This document shows, piece by piece, positions 44,646 through 49,485 of a DNA stretch of 64,000 bases (the first letter of the stretch is position 1; each line of letters starts with the position of its first letter). A model generated the notes under the pieces. That model made no database searches. It was not told the DNA's origin and was given only the letters and a program-made list of their open reading frames with translations. Made by a program: the position numbers and the translations under genes. The DNA is from Sphingopyxis sp. MWB1 (GTDB taxonomy: Bacteria; Pseudomonadota; Alphaproteobacteria; Sphingomonadales; Sphingomonadaceae): positions 2,407,501 to 2,471,500 of the forward strand of contig NZ_JQFJ01000002.1 of the NCBI RefSeq assembly GCF_000763945.1, in the 5' to 3' direction.

Positions 44646-45848
44646 ATGATTCTGCTTTCCCCTCTGACGACCCTCGCTGCGCTGACCGCCGTCCAGCCGC
44701 TGTCCTTTGGCCCCGTGCCGGTCCAGTTCGAAGCCGTGCCGAGCGAGGGCCTGGAAACGCGAAGCGCGGCCGTTCTGTTGTCCGCTGAAGAGCAGCTCAG
44801 CACGCCGCCATCGGTCATCCTGCCTTTGCCGGATGCGCTGAGGACGCTGATCGAAGCGGCAATGGTCAAGGGCGAAGATGGCGAAGTGGCGACCGTGATA
44901 ACCCTCGCGCGCGAGACGCATCCGCAAAGCGCGCCTGAAATTGATGCGCTATTTGCGGCCTATGAAGCGCAGCGGGATCCCGCCGACAAGAAGGAGGTCC
45001 CGAATCCGGTACGTGAAATGCTGGAGGTCGCGATTGAAAGCGGTCAGGACCGCGACGTCGAAACGGTCGGCAAGCTGGCCAAGCAGGCCAATCCAGAGGA
45101 TGCGGCGCTGTTCGAAACGATGCTTGCCGAATATCGTACCAAAAGAGCCAAGGAAAAAGCCGCCAAGGAAGCTGCTGAGCGTGCGCGGATCGAACAGGCG
45201 AAGCTGTGGGAAAATTGGACTGGTGAGGGGCAGATTGGCGCGTCGCATGCGACGGGCAATACCAAGTCTGCGGGCCTTAGCCTCGGAATTGGCATCACGC
45301 GCAAGGGCATCGACTGGGACCAGCGTTTTCGGGCCCAGGCCGATTATCAACGCACCAACGGACGCACAACGGTAGACAGATATTTGGCCGAATATGAACC
45401 GCAAATTCGTATCAGTCCGCGTGCCTTTGTTTTTGGTCTGGGACGCTGGGAAGATGACCGGATGCAAGGGTTTGACACCCGCTGGAGCGCCTCTGGCGGG
45501 CTAGGTTACAAGGTGATTCAGCAGGATAATATGACGCTGAACGTCAAGGCCGGGCCTGCCTGGAGGCAGACACATTATATCAAGGGGGGGCAGGACACCG
45601 AACTGACCGGGCTGGCAGGCCTTGATTTCGCCTGGCAGATGTCACCGACGCTGCGGTTGACCCAAACGGCGTCGACCATCGTCGGCGAACGCACGACGGC
45701 GACCAGTGCGCTAACCTCGGTCAACGCCAAGTTGACCGAGGATTTATCCGCGCGCTTTTCCTACGCTGCCGATCTCGACACCAATCCGCCGGCGGGGATT
45801 GAAAAGCTTGATACGCGTACGCGCTTTACGCTGGTTTACGGTTTTTAG
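44646..45848 (+). CDS. DUF481 outer-membrane protein with long N-terminal extension
   Basis: 400 residues. The C-terminal 215 residues form a DUF481/YdiY-type barrel (GQIGASHATGNTKSAGLSLGI, GLGRWEDDRMQGFDTRWSASGGLGYK) ending in LVYGF. Before it lie two repeats of a helical unit (LRTLIEAAMVKGEDGEVATV... and VREMLEVAIESGQDRDVETV...), followed by a Lys/Glu/Ala-rich helix. The repeated unit suggests a periplasmic extension. A weak signal peptide is at the N-terminus. Tail-to-tail with the anti-sigma gene, sharing bases at the stops. Confidence 0.85.
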   Translation: MILLSPLTTLAALTAVQPLSFGPVPVQFEAVPSEGLETRSAAVLLSAEEQLSTPPSVILPLPDALRTLIEAAMVKGEDGEVATVITLARETHPQSAPEIDALFAAYEAQRDPADKKEVPNPVREMLEVAIESGQDRDVETVGKLAKQANPEDAALFETMLAEYRTKRAKEKAAKEAAERARIEQAKLWENWTGEGQIGASHATGNTKSAGLSLGIGITRKGIDWDQRFRAQADYQRTNGRTTVDRYLAEYEPQIRISPRAFVFGLGRWEDDRMQGFDTRWSASGGLGYKVIQQDNMTLNVKAGPAWRQTHYIKGGQDTELTGLAGLDFAWQMSPTLRLTQTASTIVGERTTATSALTSVNAKLTEDLSARFSYAADLDTNPPAGIEKLDTRTRFTLVYGF

Positions 45849-46594
45849 CGGGTAGCGCCCCAACCTGCGTCGCGCGCAGCGCGTTCGGCGGCGCCGTCCA
45901 GCGGTGCGCCGACCATCATGGCGGCGGCCGCTTGGGCCAGTCCGCTGGAGGAGGCCTGCCGAAATTCGCTGCTCGCCGTCCCCGCCTGCGTGCGTTCGAG
46001 CGCCCAGCCATTGGCGCTGTGGCAGCCGATGCCGTCGAGCGCGTCGCTCTCAAAGCTGCGGCAATAACGGCCTTGACGGTCGCGAAAACTCATCCCGATC
46101 CGCACCGCGGCATCGCCTGTCTGATTGGACGCAAGCTGGGTGTCGAGCGCCTGGGCGAGCGGGCCGGCAGCCACAACCATGCCATCGGCCATGGCGACGG
46201 GCGCTGCCGGGGCCCATGGCCGCAGCCCGATGGTGAGGCCCAGCGCCAGCGAGGCCGCCATCGCGCCCCACTGCGCCCCGCTCCATTGGCCCATGAGCCA
46301 ATGTCTGCTGCGGCCTTTTGCTTCCCTTGCCGCGCGTCGCTCGGCTAGACTGTCAACGATCCTGTCTCCCGATTGCTCGCTTGCACCAGCAAGGAGCGCC
46401 GTGAGGCGATCGGGCACCGGCTCTTCGGCAACGGGTGCATAATGGGCAGCGAGCCGGTCACGCAGCGCGCGATGGCGCGCGATCTCGGCGGCAAGTGCGG
46501 CATTGGTTTCGGCCTCACGGGTGATGCGATGCGCCGTGAGATCATCAAGCTCGCCATCGACGAAAGCGGCGATGGTTTCAGGATCGAAAGTCAT
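45845..46594 (-). CDS. Anti-sigma factor (membrane-anchored)
   Basis: 249 residues. The N-terminal cytoplasmic region (FDPETIAAFVDGELDDLTAHRI, about residues 3-60) is a typical anti-sigma domain lacking the zinc HxxxCxxC motif. One membrane helix follows near residue 105-125 (WGAMAASLALGLTIGL), then a periplasmic domain of about 120 residues with two cysteines (GRYCRSFESDALDGIGCHS) that could form a disulfide sensor. It overlaps the sigma gene as ATGA. It would hold the sigma factor until an envelope signal. Confidence 0.85.
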   Translation of the reverse strand: MTFDPETIAAFVDGELDDLTAHRITREAETNAALAAEIARHRALRDRLAAHYAPVAEEPVPDRLTALLAGASEQSGDRIVDSLAERRAAREAKGRSRHWLMGQWSGAQWGAMAASLALGLTIGLRPWAPAAPVAMADGMVVAAGPLAQALDTQLASNQTGDAAVRIGMSFRDRQGRYCRSFESDALDGIGCHSANGWALERTQAGTASSEFRQASSSGLAQAAAAMMVGAPLDGAAERAARDAGWGATR

Positions 46595-47079
46595 GCGGCT
46601 TCTCCCAGCATCTGCATCAGGCTTTCGCGGCCCCGCGCCAGCCGTGATGTGACGGTGCCGATCGGCACGTCCAATATGTCGGCGGCTTCGCGATAGGCAT
46701 AGCCTTCGACCAGCACTAGCAGGACGACTTCGCGTTGTTCATCGGGAAGGCGCGCCATGGCCTTGTCGACATCGCCCCCGACCACGCCCGCCTCGACCTG
46801 TGCCGCATCGTCGCCCGCCACCTGAGTGACGGCATCGTCGATAGGGGCGTGGATGCCGCGCCGTCCGGCGGCGCGGCGGTCGTCGATCCAGAGGTTGCGC
46901 GTTATCCGGTACATCCAGCTATCCAGTCTTGTCCCATGGCTCCATTGATCCTGCGATTTCAGCGCGCGCTCGATCGCCGCCTGACACAGATCGTCGGCGT
47001 CGCTGGTGTTGCCGGTCAGCCCGCGCGCAAAGCGGCGCAGGCGCGGCAACAGCTCGACCAATTCGTCCTCAAAGCGCAT
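46591..47079 (-). CDS. ECF RNA polymerase sigma factor
   Basis: 162 residues. Region 2 (RLRRFARGLTGNTSDADDLCQAA and WMYRITRNLWIDDRRA) and region 4 (LPDEQREVVLLVLVEGYAYREAADILDVPIGTVTSRLARGRE) are complete, with a short linker between. Overlaps the downstream anti-sigma gene as ATGA. It is divergent from a subtilase gene, and a palindromic promoter-like element (47102-47133) sits between them. Autoregulation is therefore likely. It is distinct from the EcfG general stress sigma factor, which pairs with NepR/PhyR. Confidence 0.93.
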   Translation of the reverse strand: MRFEDELVELLPRLRRFARGLTGNTSDADDLCQAAIERALKSQDQWSHGTRLDSWMYRITRNLWIDDRRAAGRRGIHAPIDDAVTQVAGDDAAQVEAGVVGGDVDKAMARLPDEQREVVLLVLVEGYAYREAADILDVPIGTVTSRLARGRESLMQMLGEAA

Positions 47080-47101: not shown

Positions 47102-47127
47102 GGATGAAACGATGCACTCCTATCGTT
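47102..47127 (+). promoter_or_regulatory. Candidate ECF-sigma promoter for the subtilase gene
   Basis: Reads GGATGAAA-N12-ATCGTT. GGATG and CGTT are 17 bases apart, the spacing of classical ECF promoters (GGAAC-N16/17-CGTT). The transcript leader would be about 75 bases. Confidence 0.6.
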
Positions 47128-47133
47128 TCTTCC
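47108..47133 (-). promoter_or_regulatory. Candidate ECF-sigma promoter for the sigma gene (overlapping, opposite strand)
   Basis: On the minus strand the same palindrome reads GGAAGAAA-N12-ATCGTT, ending 28 bases before the sigma start. Both -35 and -10 words are identical to the element before the Gly-rich gene. This predicts a bidirectional, autoregulated promoter. Confidence 0.6.
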
Positions 47134-47208
47134 CGCGGATGCTAAATTTTTTCGGCGGTGGGTGCCTGGTTCAACATTGGCTCATCATGCTGCGATCAAG
47201 GACGGCTT

Positions 47209-48513
47209 ATGCGATATGCGATTTTGGTTCTGGCGATAGGCGCGCTGCTGATCGGCGGCGGCGCCCCGAGCGCCTCGGCGCAGCTTTCGCTGCCGCAGAT
47301 CGGTGTTCCCGACCAGCGCGGGAGCCTGCCACCGCTTTCGCCCCTGCCGTCGCCGCTGCCCGAGGTCGAGCGGAGCGCGCGCGGGCTGGTGAATGGCGGG
47401 CTGGAGCGCGTTCGACTGGACCGGATCGCCACTTTGCTGCGCGAACATCCGGGACGGGTCGAGCTGGACCGCGACAAGCAGATTGCGCGTGCGGGCGTCC
47501 TGATCGCAAGCGGGGTCGATGCCGCTATGCTGGCCAAGGCTGAAGGAGCGGGTTTTACACTGATCGACCGGGAGCGGATTGAAGGACTCGACCTCGAGAT
47601 CATGCGCTTTCGCTTGCCCCGGGGGCAAAGCCTTGCGCGCGCGCAAAAACGGCTCGCCAAGCTTTTGCCCGAGGCGGAGGTCGATGCCGACCATCTTTAT
47701 TTTCAAAGCGCGGGCAGCGGGCATGCCGCGGGCGGCGCGCTTTCCGGCGCGGCGCTGGCGATGGCGACACCGGGCGGACGCGCCTCGCTGGGGCTGATCG
47801 ACGGCGGCGTTGCCAAGCATGCTGCCCTGTCTGGCCGCGTCGAGCAACGCGGCTTTGCTAGCGGCGCGCCCCGGCCGAGCGCGCATGGCACGGCGGTGGC
47901 GTCCTTGATGATCGGCACCGGGCCGGTCCGGGGGGGCGCCCCCGGAGCGCGGCTGCTCGCTGCCGATGTTTATGGCAATGATCCGGCGGGCGGTAATGCC
48001 AGCGCCATTGCCCGCGCGCTCGGCTGGCTTGCCGAACGCGGGGTTGCCGTGACAACGATCAGCCTCGTCGGGCCGGACAATAGGCTGTTGGGGCTTGCGG
48101 TGCGGCGCGCACAGCGACGCGGCATGCTGATTGTTGCGGCGGTGGGCAATGACGGCCCCGCTGCGCCGCCCGCCTATCCCGCCGCATGGCTGGGGGTGCT
48201 GGGCGTGACCGGGGTCGATGACAAGGCCCGCGCGCTTCCCGAAGCGCGGGTGAAGTCGGGGGTCGATTTTGCGGCGCCTGGCGCCGATATGGCCGCGGCG
48301 GATGAAAAGGGCGGGGTTGCGGCGGTGCGCGGCACCTCCTTTGCCGCGCCGCTCGTCGCGGGACGGCTCGCGCGCCATTATGGCGCGCCCGATGTTCAGC
48401 GGATCGAGCCTGCCGTCGCCGCCCTGATCGCCGAAGCGCATGATCTGGGTAAAAAGGGGCGTGACAAAATCTATGGCCATGGGCTGATTTGCGGCGATTG
48501 CGCGCGCCGCTGA
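47209..48513 (+). CDS. Exported S8 subtilisin-like serine protease
   Basis: 434 residues from ATG 47209 (AAGGA upstream). Signal peptide to about residue 24 (ASAQLSLP). An N-terminal region of about 160 residues may be a propeptide. The catalytic domain has Asp198 (LGLIDGG), His226 (SAHGTAVASL), oxyanion Asn314 (VAAVGNDGP) and Ser377 (RGTSFAAPLVAG). The C-terminus ends in a CGDC motif (GLICGDCARR). It is divergent from the sigma/anti-sigma pair, with an ECF-type promoter. Likely a periplasmic or secreted processing protease. Confidence 0.92.
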   Translation: MRYAILVLAIGALLIGGGAPSASAQLSLPQIGVPDQRGSLPPLSPLPSPLPEVERSARGLVNGGLERVRLDRIATLLREHPGRVELDRDKQIARAGVLIASGVDAAMLAKAEGAGFTLIDRERIEGLDLEIMRFRLPRGQSLARAQKRLAKLLPEAEVDADHLYFQSAGSGHAAGGALSGAALAMATPGGRASLGLIDGGVAKHAALSGRVEQRGFASGAPRPSAHGTAVASLMIGTGPVRGGAPGARLLAADVYGNDPAGGNASAIARALGWLAERGVAVTTISLVGPDNRLLGLAVRRAQRRGMLIVAAVGNDGPAAPPAYPAAWLGVLGVTGVDDKARALPEARVKSGVDFAAPGADMAAADEKGGVAAVRGTSFAAPLVAGRLARHYGAPDVQRIEPAVAALIAEAHDLGKKGRDKIYGHGLICGDCARR

Positions 48514-48522
48514 ATTTTTTTT

Positions 48523-48548
48523 GGAAGAAATCGCAAAGCGCCATCGTT
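48523..48548 (+). promoter_or_regulatory. Candidate ECF-sigma promoter for the Gly-rich gene
   Basis: GGAAGAAA-N12-ATCGTT, 50 bases before the 48598 start, with GGAAG and CGTT 17 bases apart. Same word as the two overlapping elements at 47102-47133, including the trailing CTTCC. Confidence 0.6.
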
Positions 48549-48597
48549 CTCTTCCCAGGCCCACCCCCTCCGGGCCGCAAGACTTAGGAGAAGGATT

Positions 48598-49485
48598 ATG
48601 GCGAAGAAGATTTTCATTCCCGCAGCGGCGCTGATGGTTTCGGCGCTGGCGATGGCAGCCCCCGCCTCGGCGCAGCTTCTGGGCGGTAGCGGCGGTCTGG
48701 GCGGAAGCCTTGGCGGCACCGTCGGCAGCACGCTGGGCGGATCGCTGGGTAATCCCGGCGACCGGATCGGCAGCACCATCGGCGGCGCAGGCGATCTGGC
48801 CGGATCGGGCCGGGGTGATGCGCAGGTCGATCGTCGTTCGGGCCGCGTGCGGTCGAGCGGCAAGGCCGATGCGCGCGGCAATGGTTCGGCCAATGGCGGC
48901 GCGGACCTGCTGGGCCGCCAGATTGGCGGATCGGCCAACAGCTCGGCAGAAGCCTCGGGCAGCGGTAGCGTGGACGCGCAACTGATCGGCACCGACGCGG
49001 TTGGCCAGACGGTGCGCGGCGCGGCCGGCACGGTGCGCGGTACCGCCTCCTCCGCGGTTGGCACCGCTGGCAATGTCGCCGCGACGGCTCGCAATCGCGC
49101 GGCCGGTGCGGCGTCGGGCGCTGGCTCGCTGGCGGGGCAGGCTGCCGGTTCGGCGTCGGGTAGCGCCAATGGCGTCTATCAGGGCAGCCTCGGCCAGCTT
49201 GCGGCGGCAGGCAGCGGTGCGGCCAATGCGGGCGGCATGTTCGCGGTTGAACCCGGAATGCCTGTCACTGACCCGCGCGGCAAGGTCATCGGCTATGTGC
49301 AGGATGTGCGCCAGACGGGCCGCGGCGTGGTTGACGCCGTGACCGTCGAAGTCGGCGATCGCGCCGCGACGCTCCCCGCCGCCAGCTTTGCCGGATCGGG
49401 CGATGTGCTCGTCAGCGGCATGACCAAGGGCGAGCTGAAAAATGCTGCCAAGCAGCAGGAAGCCGCCGGAGACGATGCCCAATAA
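48598..49485 (+). CDS. Exported Gly/Ala/Ser-rich protein with PRC-like C-terminus
   Basis: 295 residues. Signal peptide 1-24 (SALAMAAPASA-QLL). Residues 25-215 are low-complexity Gly, Ala and Ser (GGSGGLGGSLGGTVGSTLGG and similar), with NGSANGGADLLGRQIGGSAN islands. The last 75 residues resemble a PRC-barrel/YdeI-like fold (VEPGMPVTDPRGKVIGYVQD, then VSGMTKGELKNAAKQQE). It follows the subtilase by 84 bases, with its own promoter-like element. It could be a surface or matrix-type protein and a substrate of the protease (inference). Confidence 0.8.
   Translation: MAKKIFIPAAALMVSALAMAAPASAQLLGGSGGLGGSLGGTVGSTLGGSLGNPGDRIGSTIGGAGDLAGSGRGDAQVDRRSGRVRSSGKADARGNGSANGGADLLGRQIGGSANSSAEASGSGSVDAQLIGTDAVGQTVRGAAGTVRGTASSAVGTAGNVAATARNRAAGAASGAGSLAGQAAGSASGSANGVYQGSLGQLAAAGSGAANAGGMFAVEPGMPVTDPRGKVIGYVQDVRQTGRGVVDAVTVEVGDRAATLPAASFAGSGDVLVSGMTKGELKNAAKQQEAAGDDAQ

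Follow-up and report, generated by a model that had tools for sequence, protein, structure and literature searches.

ECF sigma factors are a numerous class of signalling proteins in bacteria, and autoregulation is common among them (PMC3511301). In the RpoE6-EcfR6 system of S. meliloti, which belongs to the ECF26 group, a membrane anti-sigma factor is encoded downstream of the sigma gene and a serine protease gene, SMa0142, is divergent from it. According to the report on this system (PMC6180224), the start of SMa0142 was mapped by RNA-seq and 5'-RACE, the gene is induced when RpoE6 is overexpressed, and such overexpression raises 40 genes. Its authors argue for autoregulation of rpoE6, but motifs of the RpoD/RpoH kind are present at the start mapped for rpoE6, and therefore not every such sigma gene is preceded by an ECF promoter. 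As an ECF26 sigma gene divergent from a serine protease gene is reported there to be a widely conserved context in the group, the circuit described below is, by context, of a known kind, and this type had already been described before the earlier note on this DNA was made. Two other ECF26 factors of S. meliloti, RpoE1 and RpoE4, respond to sulfite, are autoregulated and have an anti-sigma factor of the COG5662 type; they resemble our locus, whose sigma is by context of the ECF26 type and is predicted to be autoregulated, in this pairing of sigma and anti-sigma, but their neighbours are different, namely the secreted protein SMc01418 and sulfite oxidase (PMC3511301).

The locus under study lies in a window of 64,000 nt (the whole stretch of DNA analysed) from Sphingopyxis sp. 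MWB1 (GCF_000763945.1; NZ_JQFJ01000002.1, positions 2,407,501-2,471,500, forward strand). On its minus strand are encoded an ECF sigma factor of 162 aa (46591..47079), with regions 2 and 4 (PF04542 and PF08281 above cut-off) and no sigma region 3 family among its Pfam matches, and an anti-sigma factor of 249 aa (45845..46594), whose start overlaps the sigma stop (ATGA). On the plus strand are a subtilase of the S8 family (47209..48513; PF00082, E 1.1e-25; signal peptide by eye) and a Gly/Ser-rich protein (48598..49485), so that a divergent serine protease adjoins the sigma gene here, as it does in relatives. Most of the nearest named relatives of the sigma come from Sphingopyxis, and in a tree of the sigmas of the loci it clusters with that of the S. 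meliloti 4H41 divergon (L142), apart from three protease-less relatives (support 100/100). The divergent promoter of L142 is identical, letter for letter, to the SMa0142 promoter of PMC6180224. The likeness to RpoE6 includes a GGAATA..CGTT promoter before the protease gene of S. meliloti and, in the homologous anti-sigma of L142, the same pair of cysteines as in ours. The differences are that the S. meliloti locus lacks the palindrome described below (13/20) and that 40 genes are raised there on overexpression, whereas the strict promoter word is here limited to one locus. In its letters the promoter of our locus is GGAAGA or GGATGA plus CGTT, compared to an ECF26 group consensus of GGAATA / GT and to GGAATA or GGAATG in sister loci.

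The earlier note had claimed that the word GGAWGAAA-N12-ATCGTT occurs three times within 1.5 kb, which was confirmed by exact matching in the window, with copies at 47102-47127 (+), 47108-47133 (-) and 48523-48548 (+) against 0.00 expected per 64 kb in 100 shuffles. The spacing of 17 that it had given from GGA(A/T)G to CGTT is correct for all three copies. It had also placed two of them overlapping on opposite strands of a palindrome between the sigma and subtilase genes, and the third before the Gly-rich gene; both placements hold, the palindrome being an inverted repeat of 32 bp, GGATGAAACG-N12-CGTTTCTTCC (47102..47133; in full, GGATGAAACG-ATGCACTCCTAT-CGTTTCTTCC), found at the same place in relatives, and the third copy lying 49 bases ahead of its gene. 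The arms of the repeat are 10 bp long, separated by a 12-bp spacer and different from each other in a single letter, at arm position 4, and the distance from the palindrome is 22 bases to the sigma start codon and 75 bases to the subtilase ATG (47209).

Each arm contains a -35 on one strand and a -10 on the other (AACG being CGTT), and therefore two antiparallel ECF promoters of fixed spacing are superposed on the same 32 bp. The predicted subtilase promoter (47102..47127, plus strand) has GGATGAAA as -35 and CGTT at 47124-47127 as -10, and the predicted promoter of the sigma/anti-sigma operon (47108..47133, minus strand) has GGAAGAAA as -35 and CGTT at 47111-47108 as -10. When the spacing at the mapped SMa0142 start of S. 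meliloti is applied, transcription is predicted to begin at about 47136 towards the subtilase and at about 47099 towards the sigma gene. An A/T tract of the GAAAAATTTAGCA type (47140..47153, minus strand), which by eye covers -41 to -54 relative to the start predicted for the sigma gene, is a candidate UP element for one direction only; by eye also, tracts of this type recur in Sphingopyxis relatives, immediately upstream of the sigma-side -35. The palindrome has the pattern GGAWKAAACG-N12-CGTTTMWTCC, in which each -10 sits within the opposing -35. Among 88 distinct palindromes from 104 loci, the spacer is nearly free and the arms are near-invariant except for positions 4 and 5, with weak variation on one side at position 6. 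At position 4 the two arms agree with each other in a proportion of 0.94 vs. 0.57 expected, to which shared ancestry contributes, and at position 5 there is no agreement beyond chance (0.66 vs. 0.68).

Symmetric bidirectional sigma-70 promoters were reportedly described by Warman et al. in 2021, the symmetry concerning the -10 region of sigma-70. One symmetric element gives divergent starts there and is predicted to do so here, but in our locus it is a full ECF -35/-10 pair that overlies the reverse complement of itself. No description of a palindromic or overlapping ECF layout was found in searches of openly licensed PMC papers, including passages of PMC3817407, PMC10880074 and PMC8999054, although the NAR 2021 classification could mention it. 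The type of circuit is known and the superposed promoter is, as far as these searches show, a new variant of it.

In the whole genome (3,118,428 bases) the exact word was found three times, always at the sigma/subtilase locus; a word common at random positions of the genome, which the earlier note had named as grounds for refuting its proposal, is thus not what was seen. With up to 2 mismatches there were 45 genome matches, compared to 7 for a reversed-pattern control, and the three matches with 1 mismatch all fall within open reading frames, as expected of chance sites. The reversed pattern gave no matches in the exact-word, looser-form and palindrome searches across genomes; however, it was not relied on because steps of the CTA/TAG type in the reversed word are expected to be rare in high-GC DNA, and genomes with and without the sigma gene were compared instead. 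Among 80 congeneric genomes, the sigma was detected in 53 (E <=1e-50) and the word in 52, with both in 51 and neither in 26; that is, the word was found in 51/53 genomes with the sigma vs. 1/27 without it (Fisher p ~1e-17). The exceptions are G035 and G063, in which the sigma is present but the exact word is not, and G022, with the word and no sigma. Despite the missing exact word, G063 has a looser palindrome, and the promoter letters of the G035 locus (L055) are identical to those of L125, whose palindrome scores 18/20.

These congeners contain 88 words, of which 54 adjoin the sigma start and 28 are at the place of the Gly-rich gene, 1.2 to 1.8 kb upstream, so that 82/88 are at the predicted places and the word is conserved at the same intergenic location in related sphingomonads, the comparison on which the earlier note had made its proposal depend. 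The remaining six are in G085 (two), G034, G077, G022 and G026 (one each); those of G077 and G022 lie within mechanical reading frames, the latter frame being possibly spurious. As off-locus exact words were so few (6/88), the idea of a wider regulon, pursued across the genus with both exact and looser forms of the word, was discarded. The off-locus word of G034 (contig 11; L062 1501-2928) stands before a second copy of the Gly-rich gene, of 451 aa, which adjoins a frame that looks like the remnant of a subtilase. A site of the looser form in our own genome, GGAATAAA-N13-TCGTTCTC (contig C2, ~1675654, minus strand; L023 1501-1526), lies ~46 bases 5' of the ATG of a small gene, whose product begins with a signal-like sequence (MKKWTALALLFALPASAAVA...). 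This site fits a promoter of the small gene, and this sigma or a different ECF factor may recognise it. It is, however, also covered by a mechanical frame on the opposite strand and had no counterpart in the other 79 genomes of the genus.

The association with the sigma extends beyond the genus. In a sample of 396 genomes of the order, the palindrome was detected with at most 1 mismatch in 95, all of them with the sigma, and in none of the 280 without it; the sigma was present in 116 genomes at a threshold of E <=1e-40, with at most nine candidates scored per genome, so that a sigma could be missed. Of the 21 sigma-bearing genomes without a palindrome at 1 mismatch, two score 18/20 (L227 and L229) and 19 score 15 or less. 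Outside Sphingopyxis, 74 among the 75 palindromes listed stand 23 to 52 bases from the sigma match and the remaining one (L213) adjoins a 44%-identical sigma, and at all 30 palindrome loci inspected from this search the repeat is between the sigma and a divergent subtilase. In G431 the same palindrome with an equally scoring sigma appears near the starts of contigs C1, C2, C9 and C10, which is either a multicopy element or an assembly repeat. Among 385 genomes of the class there were nine matches, of which the five perfect ones (our own genome, G107, G519, G732 and G622, the last three from outside the order) are at sigma-subtilase loci; the four with 1 mismatch are not, one of them (L242) having a 35%-identical sigma nearly 0.9 kb off and no subtilase. 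The set of 143 loci used in the following comparisons was a mixture chosen by sigma similarity (L090-L159 included, L160-L169 left out), by palindrome or by absence of palindrome, and for this reason the 103 palindromes at 124 subtilase loci do not represent a frequency. A fairer one is given by the named loci chosen by their sigma (L090-L141), in which 51/52 have a palindrome of at least 18/20, retained down to 51% sigma identity. The palindrome is thus a promoter layout retained across genera, a feature that goes beyond the earlier note.

The same data bear on which sigma reads these promoters, as another ECF factor, for instance EcfG of the general stress response, might do so. The EcfG consensus is GGAAC-N16/17-CGTT, and in ECF15 (EcfG) systems the anti-sigma NepR is small and soluble and a PhyR gene is nearby. 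The sigma of our locus is indeed related to the sigma domain of PhyR, and its anti-sigma has a NepR-like stretch, although the NepR match is below cut-off (24.2 vs. 25.7 bits). The regulons of RpoE2 and RpoE6 overlap in S. meliloti, according to PMC6180224. However, the anti-sigma here does not share the small, soluble nature of NepR, being a protein of 249 aa in which a TM helix is predicted and the C-terminal domain is large, and the -35 letters are GGATG/GGAAG instead of GGAAC. Moreover, when this sigma is absent the word is seen in just one of the 27 congeners and the palindrome in none of the 280 genomes of the order, although weaker ECF sigma matches exist in the 11 sigma-less congeners checked for them. 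We consider it highly unlikely that EcfG or another such factor is the reader. That the word follows the presence and absence of the sigma, together with the RpoE6 parallel, supports the single autoregulated sigma circuit that the earlier note had predicted.

Among the loci that have a subtilase but no palindrome, 21 in number, a promoter of the form GGAAT[AG]..CGTN faces each way in 14, the two standing back to back with their -35 ends separated by 10 to 112 bp; four have one on the sigma side only, two on the protease side only (L142 and L228), and one (L140) has none by this pattern. In most sister loci the palindrome is thus replaced by separate promoters of the GGAAT type, a finding that argues against its being the operator of a dimeric transcription factor and resembling ECF promoters by coincidence or as a secondary trait. 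With its 32 bp and arms of 10 bp, the inverted repeat does look like a dimer site, and nearly all palindrome-bearing genomes carry a single copy. But the third copy of the word has the same spacing without the dyad, and the arm consists of just the -35 (GGAWKAA) and the reversed -10 (CGTT) of this one-way promoter. In addition, palindrome and sigma are concordant in 375/396 genomes (95 with both and 280 with neither), all of which makes the operator a very improbable explanation.

The promoter words, their geometry, their conservation and their co-occurrence with the sigma are established by sequence and comparison, and we infer from them, with considerable confidence, that the palindrome is the two-way promoter of one ECF26-type sigma, that a one-way copy serves the Gly-rich gene and that a membrane anti-sigma restrains the sigma. 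RNA polymerase with this sigma would transcribe the sigma and anti-sigma genes when bound in one orientation and the subtilase gene in the other; as both promoters are superposed, their simultaneous occupancy should be mutually exclusive. The third promoter would drive expression of the Gly-rich PRC-barrel protein, and the anti-sigma, with its conserved cysteine pair, would hold the sigma until a putative envelope signal frees it.

The predicted promoter of the Gly-rich/PRC-barrel gene (48523..48548, plus strand; predicted start at 48557) has the same -35/-10 and spacing as the other two, and continues as CGTTCTC rather than CGTTTC, hence the absence of dyad. Its 26-base span is kept in all 47 loci with a Gly-rich homologue, with scores of 12 or 13 of 13, although some freedom of choice is implicit in these scores, taken as the best site per ~1.6 kb. 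It has GGAA in all 38 loci of the Sphingopyxis set (our own plus L090-L126) and GGAT in the nine others, a split that broadly parallels that of the palindrome arms. Residues of the sigma that track GGAA/GGAT were also looked at, and columns 143 and 148, for example, separate the groups, but no claim is made on them as one group is dominated by Sphingopyxis. The protein has a signal peptide, by eye, and a C-terminal PRC-barrel-like domain (residues ~215-275). Its model has pLDDT <50 over 166/295 residues, so that the low-complexity part is unusable and only the C-terminal domain is informative; the latter aligns with the PRC-barrel-type domains of CdvA, MTH1859, the reaction-centre H chain and RimM, with E values of 0.006 to 0.05, none below 0.001. 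Four relatives were scanned and each gave a weak, sub-threshold match to PF05239 (PRC-barrel), with E values of 0.0017 to 0.0084, and no match was found at E 0.01 in the protein of the window.

The subtilase has its catalytic residues (D198/H226/N314/S377) in place, and these are intact in 120/124 of the subtilases compared. Two of the exceptions (L128 and L132) are truncated at contig ends. In the other two, L208 and L251, Gly or Gln is aligned at the position of the catalytic Asp, which could be due to a slip in the alignment or correspond to inactive proteases.

The anti-sigma has an N-terminal helical anti-sigma domain (helices 5-75), which includes the NepR-like stretch, and in its AlphaFold model (mean pLDDT 84) a beta domain follows helix 107-124, a predicted TM helix that lies in the least confident part of the model. 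No convincing match to solved structures was found for it (best E 0.35). Residues ~130-249 form an alpha/beta domain, predicted to be periplasmic, with two facing cysteines. These cysteines, C178 and C191, are invariant in a 27-row alignment and, judging from the limits of strands 177-183 and 186-193, would face each other in a predicted hairpin; they may equally well form a structural disulfide or act as a sensor. The pattern C-[RKH]-x(9-20)-C after residue 100 was detected in all 105 complete anti-sigma frames adjoining a divergent subtilase, a count in which 32/143 loci gave no complete frame. At subtilase-less loci, the pair is present in three of six complete anti-sigmas (L127, L224 and L247, of which L247 is situated at a contig end) and absent from L144, L146 and L149; a second frame picker also yielded frames without the pair behind the sigma of the subtilase-less loci L144-L158, that of L148 being of 58 aa. 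Convergent with the anti-sigma gene, and with a 4-base overlap with its end, there is a DUF481 gene (44646-45848), for which no homologue was found in 57 relative loci, some of them short.

In a tree of 114 sigmas, the palindrome layout requires two changes, for which a single gain followed by a single loss is the best reading, and in a tree of 52 sigmas the palindrome rows plus L224 are on one side of a branch of moderate support (89/87), compatible with a putative single origin. L224, nested among the palindrome loci and without subtilase in the stretch read, has kept the sigma-ward promoter and lost the subtilase-side half. By contrast, the palindrome still scores 19/20 at L127, where no subtilase homologue was found alongside, thus the loss is not immediate after the absence of the subtilase. 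Second copies of the sigma, 73-75% identical to that of the window, are those of L127 (Sphingopyxis sp. JAI108) and of G061 (C1:2271000-2271491), the latter interrupted by an internal TAG.

Such a history would also be expected if both promoters were real but their superposition had no regulatory use and, once formed, was hard to undo because mutations in an arm mostly harm both promoters. The two changes in the tree, with the loss at a subtilase-less locus, and the separate promoters of the sister lineages speak for this possibility, to which we give slightly less than an even chance. Against it, the region shows some flexibility, as the gap from palindrome to subtilase varies widely among loci, L106 has ~260 bp extra between palindrome and sigma, and arm letters drift in L125, L227, L229 and L233. 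Despite this, a score of at least 18/20 is found at all 74 subtilase loci that the tree of 114 sigmas places in the palindrome group, although in a sample partly chosen by palindrome.

It is rather doubtful, although conceivable, that the superposition of the promoters evolved as a device of control and that the cysteine pair of the anti-sigma is a redox- or thiol-sensitive switch on whose state the induced protease feeds back. As the palindrome would be occupied in one orientation at a time, each protease transcript would then cost a sigma/anti-sigma transcript and, if this were true, the positive feedback of the sigma would be capped and the ratio of protease to regulators fixed.

Whichever applies to the two-way promoter of the sigma, a promoter that reads alike on both strands offers a simple, testable means by which autoregulatory feedback of an ECF sigma may be coupled or limited. 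Its pattern is short and rigid enough to be scanned for, so that one can follow through individual genomes where it is present, where it arose and where it was lost. For this uncharacterised sphingomonad system, the analysis provides the prediction of a compact regulon, with the cysteine pair of the anti-sigma as a candidate sensor.
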